Shown piece after piece: positions 23,551 through 42,638 of a stretch of DNA of 53,756 bases. Made by a program: the position numbers and the translations under genes. This DNA is from Clostridiales bacterium (GTDB lineage Bacteria > Bacillota > Clostridia > Christensenellales > UBA1242), in assembly GCA_015055535.1 (NCBI GenBank), contig SVIA01000008.1:1-53756 (forward strand), in the 5' to 3' direction. Numbering within the stretch: the stretch's first letter is position 1; each line of letters begins with the position of its first letter. The notes below the pieces were generated by a model. The model made no database searches. It was given only the letters and a program-made list of their open reading frames with translations, and was not told the origin of the DNA.

Positions 23551-23558
23551 TAACTTCT

Positions 23559-23586
23559 TTGAATTTAAAAAAGCTTATGATATAAT
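23559..23586 (+). promoter_or_regulatory. Promoter of the DivIVA-type gene
   Basis: TTGAAT at 23559-23564, 16-bp spacer, TATAAT at 23581-23586 preceded by TGA. Confidence 0.8.
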
Positions 23587-23619
23587 AAATGTTATATTTA
23601 AAACTTAAAAGGGAAAATA

Positions 23620-24450
23620 ATGAAAGAGTTTAGTTTAGAAAGAAAAGGATATTCTATTAAAGAGGTTGATGATTATTTAATTTTAGAGCAAATAGAACAT
23701 GATAGACATTTAAAAGAAAAGCAAGCTAGAATTAATGAATTAAGACAAGAGAATTTTGATTTAACAAGACAACTTAATATTTATAAACAAAAAGAAGAAA
23801 GCATTTCTTTAGCGCTAACTAATGCAAACGAAAAAGCTAAAGAAATTATTGCAAAAGCGAAACTTGAATATAGTTTAGAATTAAAAAATTTAGATGCTTT
23901 TTATGAAAAATGGAATAACTTTTTTAATGAATTAATTAAAAGATACCCTAAAATGCATGATTTTGATGATAAAAAAGTTTTAAGTAATATAAAAGAAGAT
24001 ATTAAAAATATTGTAAGTGGAACATATCAGATATCATATAAAGAAGATAATAAAAATAGTGTAAGTGTATTGTTAGATAAACTAAAAGAACATTCACAAA
24101 ATAAAGAAAGAAAAAAAGTATCTTTAAAAACTAATGAAAATGTTAATAAAGATATAATTATAAAAACTGAATGCGAACTGGAATATCAAGAACAAAACAA
24201 TAAAATTAATAATATAAAACCAATTACAAACTTAAAGCTTGATAATGAAGAAAAAGAAGAGTTTGAAAGTTTATTAGATAAATTTTTACATACTAATAAT
24301 AAAATATCAAAAGGTTATGAAAGTCGAATTTTAAATACAAACAAAAAATCTAAATATCCAAAAGCTAATAGTAGCGGTTTTGATTTTGAACAAGCTTTAA
24401 ATCCGACCGACGATTTAAGTAAAATAATGCAAGGTTTTAAACTTGATTAG
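23620..24450 (+). CDS. DivIVA/GpsB-type coiled-coil protein
   Basis: The 276-residue protein begins with the DivIVA lipid-binding pattern FSLERKGYSIKEVDDYL, followed by a coiled coil (about residues 28-90) with INELRQENFDLTRQLNIYKQ and the A-rich stretch ANEKAKEIIAKAKLE. DivIVA proteins mark curved membrane and recruit division or cell-wall partners. The C-terminal half is charged and probably disordered. Its 3' end overlaps the convergent cysteine desulfurase gene by 14 bp, with no terminator between them. Confidence 0.82.
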   Translation: MKEFSLERKGYSIKEVDDYLILEQIEHDRHLKEKQARINELRQENFDLTRQLNIYKQKEESISLALTNANEKAKEIIAKAKLEYSLELKNLDAFYEKWNNFFNELIKRYPKMHDFDDKKVLSNIKEDIKNIVSGTYQISYKEDNKNSVSVLLDKLKEHSQNKERKKVSLKTNENVNKDIIIKTECELEYQEQNNKINNIKPITNLKLDNEEKEEFESLLDKFLHTNNKISKGYESRILNTNKKSKYPKANSSGFDFEQALNPTDDLSKIMQGFKLD

Positions 24451-27699: not shown

Positions 27700-30600
27700 A
27701 TGAAAAATTGCATTAATAAATTTACAAAAATTACATTAAAATGTTTAACCGTTTTTGCGATACTTGCAGTTGGCTTTTTAGGAATATTCTCAGCGCCACT
27801 TATGAATATTGCAAAACTTATGGCAGAAACTGACTATACTCAATTTGTTGCTGCTGGCTTAAAATTATTAAATATGCCAAAATCAGCAAAATTAAATCAA
27901 GTAGTTAAAGTTCCATTTGGTAAATCTGATAGTAGTTCAGACGTTATCAATACTAAAATTTTAAATCCAAAAGGGGAAGTTATTTTTGATAATTTTGCTC
28001 AAGATTTAACAATTTACACAAGTGTTGTTAAAAATGATACTACAAAAACTTACGATTTAACACCTAATAAAGTTGGTACTTATAAAGTACAATATTCTGT
28101 TGAAGGTGCTACTAATAGAAATTTAGCAGTTCAAGAATATAAAATTGTTGTAACAGGCGTTAAACCAGTTATTAGCTTTGAAGAAAATACTAAATATATT
28201 ATTCCTAGCGTAACTAATGGAAGTTATCAAATTGTTTTACCAAATCCACTAGCAGTAGATAGTCAAGGATATGAAGTAGCAGAAGATAAAGTTTTAGATA
28301 ATTTAGAAATTACAGTTAAAGATAGTTATACTAACACTTCTTATAATAGTGATTTAGCAATAGTAGACGATTATTTTATTAAAGTTGTAGATGGTCATTA
28401 TGCTTTCACTCCTAACGCAGAAGCAGATTGTACTTATACTGTAACTTACACTTATACAGATATTTCTACAGGATTAACTGTTTCAGAAGTATTTGAAATT
28501 AATTACGAAAAAGCTTTTGATGCAAATAGTATTGATCTTGGATTTAAATTCAATGGTTCTATGCCAGATTCTTTAGAATTAGGGGTAGAGAAAACTCTTC
28601 CAACAGTTTCTGTATATGATAATAATGATAGTGAATTAAAATTAGAAGCTTATACAGACGTTAATGTTGTGTTTGTACCAAATTCTACAAATGCTAGTAA
28701 ATATGAAAGTTTATTAGATGATGGTAAAGATTATATTACAGTTGCTACATCAAATGTAGTTACACCAATGTATCCAACAACAGATGGTACTTATAAAATC
28801 ACTTATAAAATATCTGATTTTTATAATTTATCTCAAAATAAAGTTAATAAAACTTTAGTTTATACAATTAATGATGTAAAAGATTCAACAGCTCCAAAAA
28901 CTTATGCTGTTAAAGATTATAAAGATGCAATAGTATTTGATACACAAGATACTACTAAAGTAGTAGGTGTTAAAGAAGATTATGAACCAGTAGAAGTAGA
29001 ATATATGATTCCTACTAAAGTTGCTACAGGTACAGAAGTTTATTTACCAGCAATTTTTGCAAAAGATAATTTTACAAAATATGAAAATATGCTTTCTTCT
29101 TTAAAACGTGTTATTGTTCCAGAAAGTGGAAGCAATACTACAGTAACTACTTGTTACAAAGAAGTAGAAGGCACAATGCAAAGAGTTACAGTTTCTCCTT
29201 ATGAAACAGCTTCTTATAAATTTGAAACTCCAGGAACTTATACAGTAAGATATGAAGCTAAAGATGAAGCTGGAAAATATAATTACACTGGCTTAAACTT
29301 TACAATTGTTGTAGAAGATGGTTTTGTAGATGAAGTTGCTCCTAAAATTACTATGACAGGTGTTCCTTCAACAAGTAAACCTGGTGAAGTTGTTAGCTTT
29401 AATAAACCAAAAGTTGTAGACTATATTGGTACAAGCTCAGTTGATACTGATGTTGTAGACAAAAAACTTGAAATTGGTTACTATTACTATACAGGTTCTA
29501 TGACTTTAGACACTTTAAAAGCTGAACTTAATAAAGTAAAAAATAACGAAACTTCAACATTAGTTGAAATTAAAGAAGATGAAAAAGATTCAAATAAATT
29601 ATCATTTATTGCTCCAGAAAGCAATGTAACAGTTGTAGCTGTTGCTTATGATGATTCTAACAATCAATCAATTGAACAAAGAAGTATTTCTATTGTAAAT
29701 ATTGTAGATACTACAGCACCTGTAATTTCTACAACTGATACAAGTTATGTAAATGGTCTTTTAAGTGAAAACTTAAAACAAGATGAAATTATTAATCTTC
29801 CAAGTTTAGTTGTAACAGATGGCGAAAATGCAGACTATTTAGAAGGTCATGTTACAGTAGTAGATAAAGATGGCAATAGCGTTAGTGTTATTGGTGCTAA
29901 ATATACTATAAGTAACAAAGCTCTTTCTATTAGCAATGCAAGATTTGTTGCTACAAAATCAGGAGAATATACAATTAATTATACAATTAACGATATTGGC
30001 GGTAATTATGTTGTAAAAAGTTATATTGTATCAGTTACTGATACTAAAGCTCCAACAATTGAAGTAGATAGCACAGTTACTACAGTTGAAGTTGGTGAAA
30101 CATTTACAATGCCAACTATTACTGTAAAAGATAATGGTGAAGTATTAACAAATGCTTATTCTGAAATTCGTTTCGTAGGCGATAATAACCCAAGTTATAG
30201 ATTTAATAATGGTACAAAAGAATTTACTGCTTTAGAAGCTGGTGTATTCACTTATGAATATTATGCTAAAGATGAAGCTGGTAATGAAACTATAAGTGGT
30301 CCTTATACATTTACTGCAAAAGATACTATAAATCCTACAATAGAACTTGATAGAGATTTAAATGCAGATAAACATTATCCACTTGAAAAAGAAGGAGATG
30401 TTATTAAAGCAATTTATCTTCCAGGCTTTACAGCAGAAGATGAATTAAATGGAATTAAAGAAACTAAAGTAGAAGTATTATCACCAAGTTCTAAATCATT
30501 GACAGTAAAAGCTGAAAATGATGGAACATATAGCTTTGTTCCAACTGTAGATGGTGTTTATACTATTGTTTATACAGCTATTGATAATGCAAACAATCAA

Positions 30601-31131
30601 ACAAAAGATGAGTATTTAATTAAAATTGGTGACAATACAGTTCCATCAATAGTAATTAATAATCAAGATGTTAACGCTCCTAGCGAATTAAAAATAAATA
30701 GCACTTTAGAATTAGATTTATCTGAAATATCAGTATCAGATGCTGGTACTACAAAAACAGCAGAAGATTTAACTAGTGAATATACAAACAATGGTGTTAA
30801 AATGTTTACTGTTAAAGTAACTGGTCCAGATGGTTCTACAATTTCTGTTAATGATGGTGCAGAATATGAATACACATTAAGTAAAACAGGTAAATATACA
30901 ATTACTTATACAGCAAGAGATAAAGCTGGTAATGAAGAAGTAATTAAAAAATATGTAGAAGTTTATGCTGATGATAGCAATTCAGTTATTTCATCTGAAA
31001 CTTGGGGTGTAGTTCTAATTGTTGTAAGTCTTGCAATTTTAGGTGGAGTAGTAATTTACTTTATTAAAACAAGAGATAAAAAACCAACAGCTAAAAAATT
31101 AACAGATAAAAAAGACAATAAAAACGATTAA
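27700..31131 (+). CDS. Large surface protein with Ig-like repeats and C-terminal anchor
   Basis: The 1143-residue protein has an N-terminal signal region (basic start, hydrophobic TVFAILAVGFLGIFSAPL, likely cut near LMAETD) and about eight to ten Ig/cadherin-like beta repeats. The repeats share ends such as YTVRYEAKDEAGKY, YTIVYTAIDNANNQ and YTITYTARDKAGNE, and links such as DTTAPVIS and DTKAPTIEV. A single C-terminal membrane helix (WGVVLIVVSLAILGG, about residues 1102-1121) and a Lys/Asp-rich cytoplasmic tail anchor it. There is no LPxTG motif. An adhesin or cell-surface structural role is likely; the ligand is unknown. Confidence 0.85.
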   Translation: MKNCINKFTKITLKCLTVFAILAVGFLGIFSAPLMNIAKLMAETDYTQFVAAGLKLLNMPKSAKLNQVVKVPFGKSDSSSDVINTKILNPKGEVIFDNFAQDLTIYTSVVKNDTTKTYDLTPNKVGTYKVQYSVEGATNRNLAVQEYKIVVTGVKPVISFEENTKYIIPSVTNGSYQIVLPNPLAVDSQGYEVAEDKVLDNLEITVKDSYTNTSYNSDLAIVDDYFIKVVDGHYAFTPNAEADCTYTVTYTYTDISTGLTVSEVFEINYEKAFDANSIDLGFKFNGSMPDSLELGVEKTLPTVSVYDNNDSELKLEAYTDVNVVFVPNSTNASKYESLLDDGKDYITVATSNVVTPMYPTTDGTYKITYKISDFYNLSQNKVNKTLVYTINDVKDSTAPKTYAVKDYKDAIVFDTQDTTKVVGVKEDYEPVEVEYMIPTKVATGTEVYLPAIFAKDNFTKYENMLSSLKRVIVPESGSNTTVTTCYKEVEGTMQRVTVSPYETASYKFETPGTYTVRYEAKDEAGKYNYTGLNFTIVVEDGFVDEVAPKITMTGVPSTSKPGEVVSFNKPKVVDYIGTSSVDTDVVDKKLEIGYYYYTGSMTLDTLKAELNKVKNNETSTLVEIKEDEKDSNKLSFIAPESNVTVVAVAYDDSNNQSIEQRSISIVNIVDTTAPVISTTDTSYVNGLLSENLKQDEIINLPSLVVTDGENADYLEGHVTVVDKDGNSVSVIGAKYTISNKALSISNARFVATKSGEYTINYTINDIGGNYVVKSYIVSVTDTKAPTIEVDSTVTTVEVGETFTMPTITVKDNGEVLTNAYSEIRFVGDNNPSYRFNNGTKEFTALEAGVFTYEYYAKDEAGNETISGPYTFTAKDTINPTIELDRDLNADKHYPLEKEGDVIKAIYLPGFTAEDELNGIKETKVEVLSPSSKSLTVKAENDGTYSFVPTVDGVYTIVYTAIDNANNQTKDEYLIKIGDNTVPSIVINNQDVNAPSELKINSTLELDLSEISVSDAGTTKTAEDLTSEYTNNGVKMFTVKVTGPDGSTISVNDGAEYEYTLSKTGKYTITYTARDKAGNEEVIKKYVEVYADDSNSVISSETWGVVLIVVSLAILGGVVIYFIKTRDKKPTAKKLTDKKDNKND

Positions 31132-31261: not shown

Positions 31262-31651
31262 TTATAAAATATTTTGAAAATTTGGGATTATCAAATGTTG
31301 ATAAGTTTTAGAAAAATATATTAATAAGTTTAATTCAACAATTAATTCTTCTTTTTTATTAAGTAGTGACAATGTTCTCATTTTACTAATTTGTTCACCA
31401 GCTTCTTCAATATTAATGGGATTAACTATATATGATAAAAATTCTTCAGACTTTTCCCAAAATTTATAAATTTCTTCAATGTTTGATTTTATTGGTTCAG
31501 TATTTACATTTTCTTCTTTTTCAATTAAAATAAGCAATTCTTCAGATTTGTTATATAAATTTGATAAGTTTTGTCTTAAATACATTTCTTCTAAAAAACA
31601 CAATCCAATTAATGCGCTAAAAATAAATATAATTATAAAGCCTCTTTTCAT
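31262..31651 (-). CDS. DUF4363 family protein
   Basis: The 129-residue product has one N-terminal membrane segment (FIIIFIFSALIGLCFLEE) and a helical extracellular part with pairs of acidic residues and EFLSYIVNPINIEEAGEQIS. This is the DUF4363 pattern, a family nearly always encoded directly after a DUF421 (YetF-like) gene, as here. Start and DUF421 stop overlap by one base. Its function is unknown; it may be a partner of the membrane protein. Confidence 0.82.
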   Translation of the reverse strand: MKRGFIIIFIFSALIGLCFLEEMYLRQNLSNLYNKSEELLILIEKEENVNTEPIKSNIEEIYKFWEKSEEFLSYIVNPINIEEAGEQISKMRTLSLLNKKEELIVELNLLIYFSKTYQHLIIPNFQNIL

Positions 31652-32367
31652 TAGTTATTACCGCCTTCAAGTGTTGTTTTTAAGATTTTATAAGGTTTGT
31701 TTTTTGCTTGAATATACATGTTTCCATCGTTGTCTAAAGTAAACACTAAAATATCTTTAATTTTATTTTCACCTGCTCGCTTGATTTGTTTTAATATAAA
31801 ATTTTCATCTATTTTTGCAAGAACCATATTTTCTTTCACAATTTTTCCATCTGAAACAATAATCATAAAAAGTCTATTTTCGCTACAATTAATATTTAAG
31901 TCTTCCTTAGTTGCGGGAGTAATTTTTGCTTTTGGAATAGCAGTTATTTTGCCATTTGTTTCAACTATAGCGTATTCTATATCATCAAAGTTGAAATAAT
32001 TTAAATTTCTTAGACTTTCTTGTATATCGTTAAGATTTAAGTTGAGCTTTTTTAGGTTTTCATAATCAATACCATTTGGGGATATAATTATAATTGGTTT
32101 TCCACTAACCAGTTTTCTAAACCAAATACTTTTTCGCATTAAAAAAGATATAACAAAGTGTATTAATAAAAGAGTTATTAAAGGAACTATACCATGAATT
32201 AATGGAATAGATGTATCTGCCATAGGTAAAGTGGCAAGGTCAGCTACAATTAAAGTTATTACAAATTCAAATGGTTGTAATTCTCCAAGTTGTCTTTTTC
32301 CCATTAATCTAAAAACTATTAATACTACGGTATAAATTATTATACATCTAGCAATTAAAGTAAACAT
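31651..32367 (-). CDS. YetF-type (DUF421) membrane protein
   Basis: The 238-residue protein has three N-terminal membrane helices with the family motif FRLMGKRQLGELQPFEFVIT and the ADLATLPMAD loop, then the YetF domain with PIIIISPNGIDYENLKKLNL and YAIVETNGKITAIPK. YetF-like proteins are linked to spore membrane and germination biology in Bacillus, but their activity is not defined. The gene lies 28 bp behind the flippase gene and is translationally coupled to DUF4363. No clear Shine-Dalgarno site is visible. Confidence 0.88.
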   Translation of the reverse strand: MFTLIARCIIIYTVVLIVFRLMGKRQLGELQPFEFVITLIVADLATLPMADTSIPLIHGIVPLITLLLIHFVISFLMRKSIWFRKLVSGKPIIIISPNGIDYENLKKLNLNLNDIQESLRNLNYFNFDDIEYAIVETNGKITAIPKAKITPATKEDLNINCSENRLFMIIVSDGKIVKENMVLAKIDENFILKQIKRAGENKIKDILVFTLDNDGNMYIQAKNKPYKILKTTLEGGNN

Positions 32368-32395: not shown

Positions 32396-33931
32396 TTAAA
32401 CTGTCTTTTTTTTGTGTTTTTTTCTTAAAATTCTTATATTTTTAAAATTAATTAATAAGCCATTTATTGTAAATATTTTAAATATTAGACAAAACGAAAC
32501 AAAAAATATAACTCCTAAAATTGAACTAATTGCAATGGAGAAAAAGGGAGTAAATATGTTAATTAAACAATTAAAACTCCATCGATTTATTAATATGGAA
32601 GGTATTAAAAATAAACACATTTTTATTAATTCTTTAAAAAATAAGTTTTTTATATTAAGTTCTTTTTTTATCATTTTAACATTAAAATAACTAGATATTA
32701 TAAGTGATGCACCCAAACCAATTGCAAGAGAATAAATGCCAAAGAAACGTGGTAAAAAAATAACACTTAAAATTAAAGCAATGCTTCCATAAACATAATG
32801 AATAAAGCTTTTTACTTCTAGTCCCATAGAATTTAAAATACTACTTGTAATATTATTAATTCCCATAGGAAGCATAATTATAGCACAATATTCAAGCATT
32901 ATTCCGCTTGTTTCATTATTATATACAAATATTCCAATTTCTTTTCCTATGCCCATAAAACAAGGGATAAATATTAGTGAAATAAAAATAGAAAAAATTA
33001 AACTAGATTTAACTTTAGAATAAAACTCATTACTATTATTTTCAGCTTTTAATTTGGCTAAATCGGGTATTAATGCGGTAGATAACGAGCCAACGAGTGT
33101 ATTGGGTAAATATAATAACGGTAGAGTCATTCCAAGTGCTATACCAAATAAAGACATGGCTTGTTCATTAGTATAACCAATACTAACTAAACTTATTGGA
33201 ATTATAACAGACATTATCATTCCACCAAAACTAGAGACTATTCTAAGTAGTGTTATAGGGAAAGATTTTTTAATTAAAGGTTTAAATTCTCCTTTTGGAT
33301 TAGATAACTTGCCTTTATGTTTAAAATAAAATAACATACTAATTAAAGTGGAAATAATACATGCTATACTTAAACTAATTGCACAGTTAATTAAGCCCTG
33401 TTCGATTGAAGGAGAGATATTAACGAGAATAATAATTAGAATAACTTTTATAAGTTGTTCAATTAAATCTACAAAACAATTTTCAAAATGTTTTTCACGT
33501 CCCCATAATGCCCCTTTAAAGCCCACATTTAATGCTGTTCCGATTAAAGCGGGTAGTAAAGCAATTAATACTGAGGCTATTAGAGATTCTTTAGAAATAA
33601 GTGTTATAATTGGTCTAAAAACAATTGTTAATATGCAAATAACAACAGCAAGTACAAAAGAAACAATGGTTGCAGCAGTAACCATTTTATTTTCTTTATT
33701 AAATTCCTTTTTTGCACGATATTCAGCAGATAACCTTGACACTGTTAAAGGAATTCCGCTTGAAATTATTGTTAGAAAAACTGAAAAAACGCTTAAGCTA
33801 ATTTGATAAATACCAATCATTTCAGCACCCAGTTCTCGGCTCATAAAAATGCGAATAACAAAACCCATTATACGCGTTAAAACTGAAAAAAAAGTTATAA
33901 TAAATACTGCTTTAAAAAGATTTTTAAACAT
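32396..33931 (-). CDS. MurJ/SpoVB-type lipid flippase
   Basis: The 511-residue product has 12-14 membrane helices and belongs to the MOP (MATE-like) superfamily, polysaccharide/lipid II flippase branch. The start FFSVLTRIMGFVIRIFMSRE with GAEMIGIYQISLSVFSV and SSGIPLTVSRLSAEY is typical of SpoVB and related proteins rather than canonical MurJ. It probably moves lipid-linked precursors for cell wall or spore cortex. The ATG lies 5 bases after a TATAAT on the minus strand (33942-33937) and has no ribosome site, so its mRNA is likely leaderless. Confidence 0.9.
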   Translation of the reverse strand: MFKNLFKAVFIITFFSVLTRIMGFVIRIFMSRELGAEMIGIYQISLSVFSVFLTIISSGIPLTVSRLSAEYRAKKEFNKENKMVTAATIVSFVLAVVICILTIVFRPIITLISKESLIASVLIALLPALIGTALNVGFKGALWGREKHFENCFVDLIEQLIKVILIIILVNISPSIEQGLINCAISLSIACIISTLISMLFYFKHKGKLSNPKGEFKPLIKKSFPITLLRIVSSFGGMIMSVIIPISLVSIGYTNEQAMSLFGIALGMTLPLLYLPNTLVGSLSTALIPDLAKLKAENNSNEFYSKVKSSLIFSIFISLIFIPCFMGIGKEIGIFVYNNETSGIMLEYCAIIMLPMGINNITSSILNSMGLEVKSFIHYVYGSIALILSVIFLPRFFGIYSLAIGLGASLIISSYFNVKMIKKELNIKNLFFKELIKMCLFLIPSILINRWSFNCLINIFTPFFSIAISSILGVIFFVSFCLIFKIFTINGLLINFKNIRILRKKHKKKTV

Positions 33932-33982: not shown

Positions 33983-34294
33983 ATGGAAATTGAAATTTTA
34001 GAAAATAAAGATTTTTTTTATAAAGTAAAAAAACAAGATACTTTAAATAGTGTTTCAAATATGTTTAAAATTAGTGAAGGACAAATAATTAAAGATAACA
34101 ATTTAAATTCAAAATTATTAGAGGAAGGTGATGTTTTATATATAAAAGAAGAAAATAATTTTTTATATTCAGTTAAGCCTTTAGATACATTACATAGCTT
34201 GTCTATAAAATTTGGTGTAAGCAAAGAATATATTATTAAAAAAAATGAGTTAACTTCAAACAATTTATTTATTGGGCAAATAATAGTTTTATAA
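33983..34294 (+). CDS. Double-LysM protein without signal peptide
   Basis: The 103-residue protein is two LysM repeats: YKVKKQDTLNSVSNMFKIS to LEEGDVLYI (about residues 13-51) and YSVKPLDTLHSLSIKFGVS to LFIGQIIVL (about 60-103). LysM binds peptidoglycan or chitin-like GlcNAc polymers. No secretion signal is present, which is odd for a wall binder; spore-coat proteins with cytoplasmic LysM domains are one precedent. It has an AAGGAG site and shares a bidirectional terminator with the next gene. Confidence 0.88.
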   Translation: MEIEILENKDFFYKVKKQDTLNSVSNMFKISEGQIIKDNNLNSKLLEEGDVLYIKEENNFLYSVKPLDTLHSLSIKFGVSKEYIIKKNELTSNNLFIGQIIVL

Positions 34295-34324
34295 AAAAGG
34301 CCTATTTTATAATAGGCCTTTTTT
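34293..34324. terminator. Bidirectional terminator
   Basis: AAAAAAGGCCTATT and AATAGGCCTTTTTT pair perfectly around TTAT. A and T tracts on both sides let it serve the LysM gene on + and the 34329-37571 gene on the minus strand. Confidence 0.93.
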
Positions 34325-34328
34325 GTTA

Positions 34329-37300
34329 TTATTTTTTATTTTTAAACTTTTTCTTAGCTTTAGCTTCTTGTTTTTCAAGTTTTAATTGTTTTCTATATGC
34401 TTTATATTCTTGAACTAACAATCTTTCTTCTTCTAAAATCATTTCAATTTCTTTTTCAATTTCTAAATATTTATTAATTAATTCATTTCTTCTAGCAATA
34501 TAGCGTTCGTGTCTTAATTGCTTAATTTTAGCTTTAGCTTCAGCTTTTAATTTTCTTGTTTCATCAACAGCTGGTTTTACTGTAATATCTTTATATTTTT
34601 CTTTAACTTTTTCTTCAATTTTTCTATTTTCTACTTTAATTTCTTCTTTTAAAGTTTTAGTGTTTTTGTATTCTTCTTTAGTAGTATCTAGTTCTTTTTG
34701 AATTTCAAGTAATTTTTCTCTTAATGCTTTTAATTTTTCTTCTCTTAAAATTAGTTGTTGTCTTCTTTCATGTTCTTTTACAATTGTTTTTGCTCTATCA
34801 TAATCTCTAACTTTTGTTTTAACAGGCAAGTGAATATTTAAACTTCTAATTAAAGCTCCAACCATAGCAATTAATAATGCTAAAGCAATAATTAGTGTAG
34901 GAATTACTAAAAAGTCGAAGTTTGTAGCGCCTGTAGTTGTTGTTGATGAATTGTTAGAATCTTCTTCAGATGTATTAGTGTCACCAATAATTAAAGTTTT
35001 ATCATCATTTTCTGTTATACTATCTTTAGCTGCAGTAAATTCAGTTTGTTCAATAGAAGAAATGCTTAAATTATCAAAGAATACATAACCTCTTGTTAAA
35101 GCATTTTCATTACCCATACTTAAATTAAATGCAATGTCTGTATCGCTTGTTGCTGAAATAAAGAAAGTATATGTTTCATAGCTAGATCCTGTAACAATTC
35201 CAGTAAAGCTTTGATTAATTCCAGTTAATTCTATTTTAGCTCCAAATGGAATAACTTCATTATTTTCATCGTATTGAGTATTTAATTCTTCTTGATTAGC
35301 ATTTAAAGTTTTAACACTTACTGTAACTTTATAATATTTTCCGCTAGTTAATTTATAAGTTTGTGTTTTTAAAGTATAATAAGCGTCTGTAATATTATGA
35401 ATAGTTAAAACATAAGGACTATTAACATAACCAACATCTAAAGTTGGGTGAGTGCTTACATTTAAAATACCAGTTTCAGCAATTCCTGTTGAAGAATTTA
35501 AATTTCCAGTAAAGTTTAAAGCTTCATAATAATAATTAGTTGTATTATCTGATTTAATATTTAAATCTACTTTAGATAGATCTGTTTTATAAGTTAAGTT
35601 GTTTAAAGTTGCGTTTGTAAATTCTGTTTCTTCAATTGTTTCTAATTTTGCATTATCGATAAATACATAACCTTTATTAGCATTTGTTTCAGTACCAAAA
35701 TTAATTGTTAAATTAGCTGTTTTTTCGTTATTAAATGTTTTTACATAAAATACTACTTCTTTCCAAGTGCTATTAGTTTCAATATTTTTAACTTGACCTA
35801 AAACTTCATTTTCTGTTGAAAGAGTTACGCTAACATTATTATTTATAATGCTTTGAGTATTTATACTAACACTTACTTTATAAAAACTTGCAGTAGAAAG
35901 TGTAAATGTTGAAGTTTTTGCAATTTGATAATCGCTTACTTTGTTTGCTAAAACTAAAACATTGTTATAACTTAATTCTGCGTTTGAGTTATTAACAGAT
36001 ACTGGGTTAACAAAAGGATAGTTTTGTTTATCAAAGTTTGTTTTATTAACATTAATTATGCCATTAAAATTATTTTCATTGTTGTTTGTAATAGTAATAT
36101 CGCTAGCAGCATAAGGGTAAGCGTCTTCAGTATTATTAATAGTAACAAAGTTGAACGCGCCATTTGCAATTGTTGGAGATTCTGTTAAGTTAGAAAAATC
36201 AACTGAATTATTGTTTGTAGTGTTTGCATTTTTATATTCATTACTAGTGATTTCTTCTAAAGTAATATTATCAAACAATGCATAACCTTGAACTAAGTTG
36301 TTTTCGCTTCCTAGTGCTAAAGTTAATTTTGCATAAGAATCTTTAAATACATTCCCGCTAATAGTAAAAGTATAAGTAATCCAATCATTTGTTAAACTAT
36401 TAGATTGTGAACTTGTACTAACAGCAGTAAAGCTTGATGTAGCAGGAGTATAAGTATTATCATTAAATGGATTTTCTTGTGTTAAATATATATTTACACC
36501 ATTAGCAGTAAATGATGATGTTTTTACATCTAAAGAAAGTTTATAATTTTTGTGTTGTTCAATTAAAATGTTATTGCTTTCAAATGCTACAAAGTCTGCT
36601 GAGTTATTGTTGATTAATAAAGCATACTTATTATTTAATCTGTTGGCGTTGCCAGGATTTGTTTCTAATTTGCTATCTTCAGTGTTAAAATAATCTCCAA
36701 TACCAACTATTTTTGCTACGTTATTAACAGTGCTAGCACCAGTTGAACTAGGTAGTTTAGTAAAGTCTGATCCAGTTTCAAAATCACCATTAATAATTCC
36801 GTTTTTAATAGAAACATCTTTACGAGTTAAAGAAATTTCTTTATGTTCTACTTTTACATTGTTTAATTGATTGTAGTATTCACTTTCACTAACAGATTTT
36901 GCACTTAAATTATCAAAGAATACACTACCAGCACTTTTGAAATTGTCTTTAGTTCCAATATATAAACTCAAGTTAACGTTTTCGTCGTTAGAAGCAGTTT
37001 TTACATAGAATCTAAATTCCTTCCAAATACCTTTTGTAGAAATATTTTCAAGTTTGCTTGTTTCAAGTGCATTTAAAGTATCATTACCTAAATATAAACT
37101 TGCAGTGCTTGAAATATCGTTATATTGAGTATAAACATAAGCAGAAATTACGTAGTGACCATTTTTAGATAATGTAAAGTTTGATGAAACATAACCAAAG
37201 CTAGAATTTAAATTTTGGTTATTAATCATTAAAACATAGTTATCTTCAGCAATTTCTGGTTTAGAAGGGTTGAACGTAAGTTTATAATTTTCACTGTTAT

Positions 37301-37571
37301 TTTCGTGAAATTTAGTTGTACTAGTATCTATAACCCCAGAAATAGTATTACCTTTAGTTCCTTCTTCGCTAAATGAATTTGGATTACCAGGTTTTGAACT
37401 ATCAAAACTTGTAAAATTAGAGTTTGATATAGTAATTTCAGTTTCTTCTGCATATAAAGGTTTATTAAAGTTTAAAAAACTAAATGCCATAAAAAAAGTA
37501 GGCATAGTAAACATTAAAACTAAAAAAGCTATAAACATTAAATTTTTAATTGTAAATTTTCTTTGTAACAT
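34329..37571 (-). CDS. Receptor-like surface protein: CBM-like repeats, TM helix, cytoplasmic coiled coil
   Basis: The 1080-residue protein starts with a long signal region (MFIAFLVLMFTMPTFFMAFS, likely cut near LYAEETE). Four units of about 200 residues follow, each ending in a jelly-roll-like strand: GSVFFDNLSAKSV, GYALFDNITLEEI, GYVFIDNAKLETI and GYVFFDNLSISSI. They resemble CBM4/9-type carbohydrate-binding folds. A Ser/Thr/Asn linker leads to one membrane helix (VIPTLIIALALLIAMVGAL, about residues 892-910). The last 169 residues are a strongly charged coiled coil that must be cytoplasmic. No kinase or enzyme motif is seen. An AAGGAAG site precedes the ATG. Confidence 0.85.
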   Translation of the reverse strand: MLQRKFTIKNLMFIAFLVLMFTMPTFFMAFSFLNFNKPLYAEETEITISNSNFTSFDSSKPGNPNSFSEEGTKGNTISGVIDTSTTKFHENNSENYKLTFNPSKPEIAEDNYVLMINNQNLNSSFGYVSSNFTLSKNGHYVISAYVYTQYNDISSTASLYLGNDTLNALETSKLENISTKGIWKEFRFYVKTASNDENVNLSLYIGTKDNFKSAGSVFFDNLSAKSVSESEYYNQLNNVKVEHKEISLTRKDVSIKNGIINGDFETGSDFTKLPSSTGASTVNNVAKIVGIGDYFNTEDSKLETNPGNANRLNNKYALLINNNSADFVAFESNNILIEQHKNYKLSLDVKTSSFTANGVNIYLTQENPFNDNTYTPATSSFTAVSTSSQSNSLTNDWITYTFTISGNVFKDSYAKLTLALGSENNLVQGYALFDNITLEEITSNEYKNANTTNNNSVDFSNLTESPTIANGAFNFVTINNTEDAYPYAASDITITNNNENNFNGIINVNKTNFDKQNYPFVNPVSVNNSNAELSYNNVLVLANKVSDYQIAKTSTFTLSTASFYKVSVSINTQSIINNNVSVTLSTENEVLGQVKNIETNSTWKEVVFYVKTFNNEKTANLTINFGTETNANKGYVFIDNAKLETIEETEFTNATLNNLTYKTDLSKVDLNIKSDNTTNYYYEALNFTGNLNSSTGIAETGILNVSTHPTLDVGYVNSPYVLTIHNITDAYYTLKTQTYKLTSGKYYKVTVSVKTLNANQEELNTQYDENNEVIPFGAKIELTGINQSFTGIVTGSSYETYTFFISATSDTDIAFNLSMGNENALTRGYVFFDNLSISSIEQTEFTAAKDSITENDDKTLIIGDTNTSEEDSNNSSTTTTGATNFDFLVIPTLIIALALLIAMVGALIRSLNIHLPVKTKVRDYDRAKTIVKEHERRQQLILREEKLKALREKLLEIQKELDTTKEEYKNTKTLKEEIKVENRKIEEKVKEKYKDITVKPAVDETRKLKAEAKAKIKQLRHERYIARRNELINKYLEIEKEIEMILEEERLLVQEYKAYRKQLKLEKQEAKAKKKFKNKK

Positions 37572-37609
37572 AATAACTTCCTTTTATTTCTATATTTATT
37601 AACTTATTA

Positions 37610-37638
37610 AGTATATTATAAATACAATTTTTTTGCAA
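37610..37638 (-). promoter_or_regulatory. Promoter of the receptor-like gene
   Basis: On the minus strand TTGCAA (37638-37633) and TATACT (37615-37610) are separated by 17 bp. Confidence 0.7.
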
Positions 37639-37692
37639 ACATTTTTTGCATAAAAAACTTATAAAATTTTATTTTTTGTTAAATATTTTTAT

Positions 37693-38067
37693 ATGCAAGC
37701 ATTTAAGTCTAAAAAGTTTAAAATAATTATAAGTTTACTTGGTGGTGTTTTTGTTGGTTTTTTAAATGGTTTTTTTGGTGGTGGAGGAGGAATGGTTGTT
37801 GTTCCGCTTTTAATATTTTTATTGGGTTTAAAAGAAAAACAAGCGCATGCAACAGCTATCTTTTGCATTTTACCATTAAGTATTACCAGTTCAATAATTT
37901 ATATAACACAAGCGAATTTGAATTTAAATAATTTACTTTTTGTATCAATAGGTGTTATTGTTGGGGGAATAATAGGTTCGCTTATTTTAAAAAAAATAAA
38001 CAACAAAGTTCTTAGAGTTATTTTTGCTTTAATAATGATTATTGCTGGCGTTAAACTAATGTTTTAG
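37693..38067 (+). CDS. TSUP (TauE/SafE) permease, N-terminal half
   Basis: The 124-residue membrane protein matches one half of the TSUP anion-exporter family: GGVFVGFLNGFFGGGGGMVV, LKEKQAHATAIFCILPLS and a last helix ending VIFALIMIIAGVKLMF. Full TSUP proteins have about 250 residues with two such repeats. The second half is the next gene, 8 bp on. Function would need both. Substrates in the family are sulfite, sulfoacetate or other organosulfur anions. No clear ribosome site precedes the ATG. Confidence 0.88.
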   Translation: MQAFKSKKFKIIISLLGGVFVGFLNGFFGGGGGMVVVPLLIFLLGLKEKQAHATAIFCILPLSITSSIIYITQANLNLNNLLFVSIGVIVGGIIGSLILKKINNKVLRVIFALIMIIAGVKLMF

Positions 38068-38075
38068 GTATTGTT

Positions 38076-38456
38076 ATGGAAATTTTTTTATTAATTTTAT
38101 TCGGATTACTTGGGGGAATTCTTGGTGGAATGGGTATGGGCGGAGGAACGTTATTAATTCCACTTCTAACTATTTTTGCTAAAATTAGTCAAATAGAAAG
38201 TCAAGCAATTAATTTAATTGCTTTTATTCCTATGGCAATAATTGCGCTAATTATTCACACTAAAAATAAACTGGTAAATTTTAAAGTGTCAATTCCACTA
38301 GTTATAACAGGTGTAATATTTTCAGTTCTTGGGTCTATGCTTGCAAACTCACTAAACGCCTTAACTTTAAAAGTTTTATTTGGAATATTTTTGGTGGCTT
38401 TGGGTTTATTTCAAATAGGAAGTTTGTTTTTTTTCAAAAAAGATGAAAAGCAATAG
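38076..38456 (+). CDS. TSUP (TauE/SafE) permease, C-terminal half
   Basis: The 126-residue membrane protein is the second TSUP repeat: GLLGGILGGMGMGGGTLLIP, SQAINLIAFIPMAIIAL and a final helix with LKVLFGIFLVALGLFQIGS. It is a paralogue of the preceding gene and presumably forms a heterodimer with it. Its 3' end overlaps the RnfC-like gene by 14 bp, so the three genes are cotranscribed. Confidence 0.88.
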   Translation: MEIFLLILFGLLGGILGGMGMGGGTLLIPLLTIFAKISQIESQAINLIAFIPMAIIALIIHTKNKLVNFKVSIPLVITGVIFSVLGSMLANSLNALTLKVLFGIFLVALGLFQIGSLFFFKKDEKQ

Positions 38457-39609
38457 ATTTTTTTATAAATATTTGCTAAAATATAATGTGATTAAATTTA
38501 AAAAGATAAAAAATGAAATTAAAGATTATAAAATAACGAAGTTTGAAAATCCAAAATCAATAAAAATTTCATCTTTAATAGTTGAAAATGAAAGGCCATT
38601 TGATATTTTGATAAAAAGTGGTGATTATGTAAAAATTAATCAACCAATTTTAGAAAATGAAGTTGGTCAAAAAATATTGTCTTCTATTAGCGGAAAAATT
38701 GTAAATGTTGGACTTGAAAATAATTTAAAAAATGAACTTACATATACAATTCAAATAGAAAATGATTTTAAAAATGAAAGTATAAAATTAAGTAAATTAA
38801 CAATTAAGAACAAATTAAATTTTATAAATATTTTAAAAGATTTTGGTTTAGTTAGTAAAGATTTTTTATTATATAAATTTTTTGAAAGCTTAACTCAAAC
38901 ATTGTATGTTAATGCATATGATGATTTTTTCATTTATAATAATTTTTCACTTCTTTTAAATTTTAAAAAAGAAATATTAATATCTTTGAATAAAATTAAA
39001 AAGTTGTTTAACATAACAAAAATTGTATTTTATACGAGTAAAAATAATGAAAAAATTGTTAAAGAAATAAAAAATAATGAAGATAAAATAAAACTAAAAA
39101 AACCTTCAAAAAACGCTATAAATTTAGAAGATTTATTAAATATTTATTATGCTTTAAAAGGTGAAAACAAACAATTTTCAATAGTTTCTGTAACAGGACA
39201 AGCATTAAATGAAAGCAAGGTTTTAATGATAAAAAGAGGAACAAACATAGAAGAAATAGTTGAATTTTTGGGTGGTTTTAAACAAAATATAGAAGAAATA
39301 GAAAACTATAAATATACTTGTATGCTTGCTTATAACGATGAATTGACACTTAAAGAAAAAATTAAAAAATGTAAGGATCAAAACGACAAAGAAAAACTTA
39401 TAAAACTATTTAGTGAAAAACAAAAAGAAGCCGAAATAAATTTATATTCTAAAAGGGAAGATTATTACAAAAAATATTTAAATTGCTTAGCTGCTTGTTT
39501 TATAAGTGAAAGCAAAATAAAATATACAATTAAAGATTTTAATAACCATATTTTGAATAATATTTATGGTATTCATATGTTAAATAATGAACAATTTAAA
39601 AAAAAATAA
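38443..39609 (+). CDS. Degenerate RnfC-like protein
   Basis: The 388-residue protein shows the outline of RnfC, the peripheral NADH-binding subunit of Rnf. Residues 50-92 match the barrel-sandwich part (RPFDILIKSGDYVKINQPIL, then SSISGKIVNVG), and 246-279 match the SLBB domain (SVTGQALNESKVLMIKRGT with EEIVEFLGGF). Missing are the Gly-rich FMN/NADH site, the GAECEP motif and the two CxxCxxC 4Fe-4S motifs. The C terminus is a charged helix. It cannot be a working RnfC as read; a structural or SLBB ligand-binding role is possible. It is coupled to the TSUP pair. Confidence 0.7.
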   Translation: MKSNRFFYKYLLKYNVIKFKKIKNEIKDYKITKFENPKSIKISSLIVENERPFDILIKSGDYVKINQPILENEVGQKILSSISGKIVNVGLENNLKNELTYTIQIENDFKNESIKLSKLTIKNKLNFINILKDFGLVSKDFLLYKFFESLTQTLYVNAYDDFFIYNNFSLLLNFKKEILISLNKIKKLFNITKIVFYTSKNNEKIVKEIKNNEDKIKLKKPSKNAINLEDLLNIYYALKGENKQFSIVSVTGQALNESKVLMIKRGTNIEEIVEFLGGFKQNIEEIENYKYTCMLAYNDELTLKEKIKKCKDQNDKEKLIKLFSEKQKEAEINLYSKREDYYKKYLNCLAACFISESKIKYTIKDFNNHILNNIYGIHMLNNEQFKKK

Positions 39610-39617
39610 AAAAAAGA

Positions 39618-39645
39618 TTGAATATTTTTTTATTTGTGATATAAT
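39618..39645 (+). promoter_or_regulatory. Promoter of the small Fe-S protein gene
   Basis: TTGAAT at 39618-39623, 16-bp spacer, TATAAT at 39640-39645 with TGA extension; the same arrangement as at 23559-23586. Confidence 0.8.
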
Positions 39646-39672
39646 ATTAAAGATTTTATGGAGAAAGGTGTT

Positions 39673-39849
39673 ATGAAAGATAAAATTGAAGAAGTAAAAT
39701 GTTTGTTGGGTGGATTTAATTGTGGAGCTTGTGGCTATGATAATTGTAAAGAATTAGCAATAGCTATTGTAAATAAAAAAGCAAGTCCAGAAGAATGTTT
39801 ACCAATAGATGAAGAGAATATTGATACTATTAAAAATTTACTAAAATAA
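39673..39849 (+). CDS. Small 4Fe-4S protein (RnfB N-terminal-like)
   Basis: The 58-residue product is little more than one Fe-S motif: VKCLLGGFNCGACGYDNCKE and a later Cys in SPEECLPID. This is the 4Fe-4S domain found after the membrane anchor of RnfB and in related redox proteins. No membrane anchor or ferredoxin domain follows. The ATG at 39673 is preferred over 39658 because GGAGAAAGG lies just before it. The product probably carries a cluster; its partner may be the RnfC-like protein upstream. Confidence 0.8.
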   Translation: MKDKIEEVKCLLGGFNCGACGYDNCKELAIAIVNKKASPEECLPIDEENIDTIKNLLK

Positions 39850-42539: not shown

Positions 42540-42587
42540 AATTATGTGATAATATGCTAAGGTTTTTTTAAAACTTTTTTAATTAAT

Positions 42588-42616
42588 TTGCTTTATTTTA
42601 TTATTTATTATATACT
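42588..42616 (+). promoter_or_regulatory. pnp promoter
   Basis: TTGCTT at 42588-42593, 17-bp spacer, TATACT at 42611-42616. Confidence 0.75.
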
Positions 42617-42638
42617 TATTAGGTTAAAAGGAGATTTT

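Follow-up and report, generated by a model that had tools for sequence, protein, structure and literature searches.

What does a bacterial protein do with four CBM-like domains on the outside of the cell and a long, charged coiled coil on the inside? A sequence-only reading of the window (the whole stretch of 53,756 nucleotides analysed here) described one of its gene products as receptor-like, with four such units, one membrane helix and a cytoplasmic coiled coil. That outline has held up well and the architecture is conserved. The interpretation that we favour, and to which we give a probability of about 0.5, is that this is a trans-envelope single-pass receptor or adhesin of the glycan-binding type, the representative of an undescribed order-wide family, and that its tail docks onto something inside the cell. 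The features of the gene and its surroundings are listed in Table 1; the gene is present as a single copy in its own genome of 0.94 Mb.

Table 1. Positions in the window of the receptor gene, its expression signals, its protein segments and the adjoining genes
Feature	Position	Strand	Remarks
Whole gene	34329..37571	-	1080-aa single-pass protein, ATG start; predicted type I topology
Shine-Dalgarno-like AGGAAG	37577..37582	-	5 nt before ATG; read from upstream sequence
Sigma-A-type promoter TTTGCA-N18-TATACT	37610..37639	-	similar element upstream of most homologues
Intrinsic terminator	34291..34326	+	between receptor gene and convergent LysM gene
Signal peptide	37449..37571	-	residues 1-41 (...NKPLYA|EE), predicted cleavage site; hydrophobic helix 8-32
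CBM4_9-like repeat 1	36867..37442	-	residues 44-235; profile alignment, repeat HMM, model
CBM4_9-like repeat 2	36231..36824	-	residues 250-447; model confidence lowest of the four
CBM4_9-like repeat 3	35604..36185	-	residues 463-656; model pLDDT 91.6
CBM4_9-like repeat 4	35016..35594	-	residues 660-852; ends in cap helix 842-851
Linker, disordered, S/T/E/D-rich	34914..35015	-	residues 853-886; least conserved segment, 13% identity
Transmembrane (TM) helix	34842..34913	-	residues ~887-910 (helix predicted for 889-910); family pattern W..IPS....LA...A..G...RK
Basic juxtamembrane segment with conserved Y924-D-R	34794..34841	-	residues 911-926
Tail helix 1	34587..34793	-	residues about 926-995; coiled-coil forming (predicted)
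Tail helix 2	34338..34574	-	residues 1000-1078; coiled-coil forming (predicted)
Half TauE/SafE permease, divergent neighbour	37693..38067	+	profile positions 123-237 of 237 (Pfam)
Second half TauE/SafE permease	38076..38456	+	profile positions 1-108 (Pfam)
Small two-LysM protein, convergent neighbour	33983..34294	+	present in 11/24 loci
SpoVB/MurJ-like polysaccharide flippase	32396..33931	-	downstream in 19/24 loci
DUF421 (YetF) protein	31651..32367	-	downstream in 18/24 loci

The ectodomain and the family

Taken singly, the window protein gives nothing significant in searches of Pfam (PF02018 included), NCBIfam and the PDB; its Pfam matches to Oxidored_q3 and TUG-UBL1 are sub-threshold and were discarded as chance. 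Profiles are more informative. Every pair of repeat profiles aligns at an HHalign probability of 99.2-99.9%, and the repeat HMM finds exactly four domains in the window protein (E 4e-39 to 5e-46). When a profile of 55 repeat sequences is compared with the PDB, it matches the CBM4 structure 1gui (6.8e-6) and the CBM70 structure 4d0q (1.3e-5); the xylanase 2w5f is a further, weak match. PF02018 is matched by six of the 55 repeats at E<=0.01, and the repeats of some relatives also match HpiC1-like. The AlphaFold model of repeat 3 (pLDDT 91.6), a structure prediction of the kind that the sequence-only reading proposed as a check, is a CBM-type beta-sandwich with a C-terminal cap helix. Its closest PDB structures by Foldseek are HpiC1 and CBM4-2 (1k42; E 8e-7, TM-score 0.68 by target); a viral structure library yielded generic phage tail and CBM folds only. 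On profile and model evidence, then, the four repeats are homologous beta-sandwiches of the CBM4/22/70 type. It is the fold that sequence and model establish; glycan binding is putative, and the CBM_4_9 fold is also found in enzymes (HpiC1). The repeats are 23-27% identical across 20 genera (~25% for the ectodomain) and homologues have from three to seven of them. CBM_4_9-like domains occur in the order in another setting too, fused as N-terminal domains to membrane enzymes of the protein O-mannosyltransferase type (L048:3766-7623 and L044:6057-8351, with a Pfam CBM_4_9 match, and L047:5011-8892, with a family profile match).

The same architecture does recur in relatives: full-length homologues (E<=1e-10) are found in 187 of the 297 genomes of the order and in 65 of its 126 genera, usually as one copy. 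Within the window's family almost every genome has one, and two apparent absences there are not losses (the copy in G020 is diverged, and a contig of G008 ends at the site). In a sample of about 400 genomes from the phylum no other genome matched at E<=1e-10; elsewhere in the class Clostridia single CBM domains were matched, with no full-length homologue. A literature search found no described protein of this architecture, and no papers combining DUF421, SpoVB and TauE or dealing with Christensenellales and CBMs. The family is thus apparently unnamed, undescribed and order-wide, the order being probably Christensenellales. Named records with matches to the DUF421 neighbour point to that order: most come from gut Clostridia that have not been cultured, and Gallimonas, Pumilibacter and 'Christensenella' are among them.

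UBA1242, to which the window is assigned and with which the small genomes, many genera, gut origin and Spo0A gene of its family agree, is described as genome-reduced, retaining sporulation genes and probably partner-dependent (PMC12306168). Larger-genome relatives carry the receptor as well, mostly in a lipoprotein-type form with a short tail, and the protein therefore did not arise for a partner-dependent way of life.

Membrane helix, juxtamembrane motif and tail

Most homologues have AxA-like cleavage sites at the signal peptide, and that of the window protein has no lipobox cysteine. With cleavage at about residue 41, the mature outside part comes to ~845 aa, less than the ~890 of the earlier reading, whose 169 residues on the inside agree with the ~170 found here. 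Single-pass topology with the tail inside is inferred from the signal peptide and the basic flank of the membrane helix. A comparison with surface proteins that end in a wall anchor, the premise from which the sequence-only reading set out, does not apply: the window's genome (95% complete) has no sortase match, and the protein has a long charged tail after its TM helix, with no LPXTG-type motif seen.

The TM segment is the best conserved part of the protein, with a mean identity of 0.383 across 20 genera (0.124 for shuffled sequences; shuffle maximum 0.144). A898, A902 and G905 recur in it, and just beyond it 19 of 20 homologues share Y924. Conservation of this kind suggests that the TM and juxtamembrane segments do more than a mere anchor would need.

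The tail itself is another matter. It is ~170 aa long, charged and predicted to form two long helices; a COILS-type score (scoring matrix entered by hand) exceeds P = 0.5 for 142 of 175 tail residues, compared with a mean of 88 for shuffled tails, 2% of which reach 142. Confidence in the full-length model is modest (mean pLDDT 65; about 50-70 in the tail). The 77 distinct homologues divide into 36 with long basic tails, 12 with long acidic tails, 28 with short tails of no more than 60 aa and one with a basic tail lacking a coiled-coil signal. Long basic coiled coils occur mainly in the window's family and acidic tails mainly in one other clade. Short tails are found mainly in a clade of larger genomes (30-58 aa there) whose receptors mostly have a lipobox and five or more repeats, and also in several lineages that belong to the window's family or stand close to it. 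When these classes are mapped on a FastTree tree of the homologues, tail type and tail length are seen to switch repeatedly. Between genera the tail helices are ~21% identical, which, together with the short tails of several lineages, makes it unlikely that the coiled coil has one conserved partner. The YDR motif, on the other hand, recurs in many relatives with short or acidic tails, so that the core consists of the TM helix and the motif next to it, with the coiled coil as an elaboration.

The short tails have endings of their own. Some members with short tails (L035, L080, L111, L120 and L192) finish in G-F/I-V-COOH (DKGFV, TDGFV, KDGFV, DGGIV), and many other short tails have an acidic ending, for example DEFKD or YDAFNE. 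Both kinds of ending are possible docking motifs.

Might the tail simply be passive? The receptor would then be a plain membrane-anchored glycan-capture protein that gathers oligosaccharides, its tail free to evolve. The repeated changes of tail on the tree would suit such a role, as would the larger-genome clade, most of whose receptors resemble lipoprotein surface glycan-binding proteins in their lipobox signal peptides and short tails. Yet a passive anchor is not expected to keep its TM segment at 38% identity (12% when shuffled), nor to keep the YDR motif, and standard sugar transporters are reportedly absent from UBA1242 (PMC12306168). We consider this explanation quite unlikely. A conserved TM/YDR core joined to an exchangeable tail suggests instead that the inside part is functional, as the favoured receptor-or-adhesin reading supposes.

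The locus and candidate partners

The terminator that separates the receptor gene from the convergent LysM gene implies that the receptor gene is probably a single (monocistronic) transcription unit. It is probably bidirectional, judging by the A-tract and the T-tract on its two sides, from which its function on the minus strand is deduced. An element TTTG-N-TATAMT-N-GTTA occurs in the window at 23558-23594, 37600-37639 and 42587-42626 (three found, 0.3 expected), preceding the DivIVA-like gene, the receptor gene and the PNPase gene, respectively; many homologues have a similar element upstream. Sporulation-specific expression is disfavoured because the upstream regions of homologues keep a sigma-A-like promoter, and these signals make it most likely that the receptor gene is expressed vegetatively.

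On the side of the gene start lies a TauE/SafE permease in two pieces, and in 41 of 50 loci from across the order this split pair stands upstream of the homologue, divergently and at a median distance of 136 bp. The pair (37693-38456) consists of two genes of ~125 aa, the C-terminal half coming first and the N-terminal half second, and the split is kept order-wide. The arrangement invites the thought that the receptor is a sensor working with the permease: the ectodomain would capture a sulfonated or sulfated ligand, or sense the substrate, TauE would move a related anion, and the TM helix would contact the permease. Sequence-specific conservation of the TM helix is consistent with such contact. 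So is the complete genome of G051, a member of the same family, which has lost the receptor gene together with the second TauE half and has kept SpoVB-DUF421-DUF4363; this co-loss is suggestive, but it is a single case. SpoVB and DUF421, moreover, are about equally conserved at the locus, so that adjacency to TauE may be no more than inherited gene order, and the role needs no long coiled coil. We regard a TauE-coupled sensor as an unlikely explanation.

Beyond TauE the loci differ. Window positions 38443-39849 hold remnants of an Rnf operon (a 388-aa ORF with an RnfC_N domain and a 63-aa Fe-S ORF, PF04060) where relatives in other families carry rnfCDGEAB. In several relatives the block runs on as (Rnf operon)-Ppx/GppA-MreB-MinD-SpoIVFB. 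In seven loci of the window's family mreB, usually with minD and spoIVFB, is found 2.5-4 kb beyond the gene start on the TauE side, and four further loci, from other families, also have mreB within this block. On the far side of the receptor gene, at 27700-31131, is the gene of another candidate surface protein, 1143 aa long, which carries bacterial Ig-like domains towards its C-terminal end.

The sequence-only reading offered a link to the cytoskeleton, signalling or polar scaffolding, perhaps by way of a DivIVA-type protein. The first of these finds contextual support in the mreB-bearing blocks of relatives; in the window's genome, however, mreB is on another contig, and there is no clear MreB in G001, though that genome has a coiled-coil tail. 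A link of the receptor to cell shape through the mreB-minD neighbourhood is, on this gene order, plausible. Signalling is conceivable. The DivIVA suggestion is not supported. The gene concerned (23620-24450) scores 25-27 bits, below the Pfam cut-off of 28, and lies 10 kb from the receptor gene. DivIVA does not co-occur with long tails, since G001, G010 and G011, which have them, gave no DivIVA match, and matches were found in the short-tail genomes G025, G028 and G030.

The same neighbourhood can be read another way, as that of a structural component of the bacterium's own envelope, with CBM-like domains that bind peptidoglycan or a wall polymer and a coiled coil that links the wall to machinery of the MreB/MinD type or to sporulation membranes. 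In several relatives mreB, minD and spoIVFB lie on one side of the gene, and its other side has the SpoVB-like flippase, DUF421 and LysM; the window's genome retains the Spo0A gene, and sporulation genes are reported for UBA1242 (PMC12306168). The position of mreB in the window's genome and its uncertain presence in the long-tail G001 count against this reading just as they do against a cytoskeletal link, the promoter is sigma-A-like, and the ectodomain is as variable as expected of a protein that faces outwards. It is also, in our estimation, unlikely.

A working model and its relatives among known systems

In the favoured interpretation, a glycan-binding-type receptor or adhesin that spans the envelope, the four domains would form a rod that binds a glycan, whether of host mucus, of a neighbouring cell or of the wall polymer of the cell itself. 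Pairing of TM helices would run through A898-xxx-A902-xx-G905 and would also involve the coiled coil. Tail and YDR region would dock onto a partner at the inner face of the membrane, so that a contact made outside would be anchored to the cell interior. In the family that is genome-reduced and probably dependent on partners, the tail would have been extended to form a coiled coil. Since the tail has no known signalling domain, a mechanical or clustering role fits better than enzymatic signalling. A more ambitious form of the proposal is that order-wide glycan receptors mechanically couple outside contacts to the cell-shape machinery in the manner of integrins or cytadhesins, their cytoplasmic adaptor having been remade as a coiled coil in one lineage that has a reduced genome and depends on partners. 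This we put forward as speculation, and think it decidedly doubtful in full.

What is gained in any event is the definition of an apparently unnamed order-wide family of surface proteins at a conserved locus beside genes of cell shape and envelope. For reduced-genome gut bacteria that are thought to depend on partners, the receptor is a definite candidate for the molecule that makes the contact, and its ectodomain can be assayed for binding without culture. Genetics of the locus might be possible in the cultured Pumilibacter intestinalis, which has the DUF421 neighbour, if the receptor gene is present there too.

Known systems share parts of this design. The CBM4_9, CBM22 and CBM70 modules (Rhodothermus CBM4-2, 1k42; the Thermotoga laminarinase CBM, 1gui; CBM70 of pneumococcal hyaluronate lyase, 4d0q) have the beta-sandwich in common with the repeats. 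The window protein differs from them in having no catalytic domain, a cap helix on each unit and strongly diverged repeats, at about 9-14% identity. Lipoproteins of the SGBP type likewise hold non-catalytic CBM-like arrays at the membrane, and most of the relatives with short tails carry a lipobox; the window protein has none, and has instead a C-terminal TM helix and a long cytoplasmic coiled coil.

RsgI of Clostridium thermocellum offers a similar list of parts, namely a domain of carbohydrate-binding type outside, one TM helix and an intracellular regulatory end (PMC12203970), and one might ask whether the window protein is a carbohydrate-sensing anti-sigma factor of that kind. In RsgI, however, the intracellular domain is N-terminal and the sensor C-terminal. 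The window protein runs in the reverse direction, its N-terminus is a signal peptide, and its tail contains neither an anti-sigma (RsgI) domain nor any other Pfam domain, all of which makes this a very improbable identity.

The nearest functional analogy may be the cytadhesin complex of mycoplasmas, P1/P140 with P40/P90/P110. These proteins have a large glycan-binding ectodomain, one TM helix with small-xxx-small motifs and a C-terminus inside, a layout that the predicted topology of the window protein fits, and the bacteria that carry them are reduced in genome and host-dependent. The ectodomain of the window protein is different, its cell is of the Clostridia type and its tail is a coiled coil, and the likeness is one of working, with no claim of homology. 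In the cytadhesins the TM and cytoplasmic parts are better conserved than the whole, and GxxxG motifs matter for adhesion (PMC11984735).
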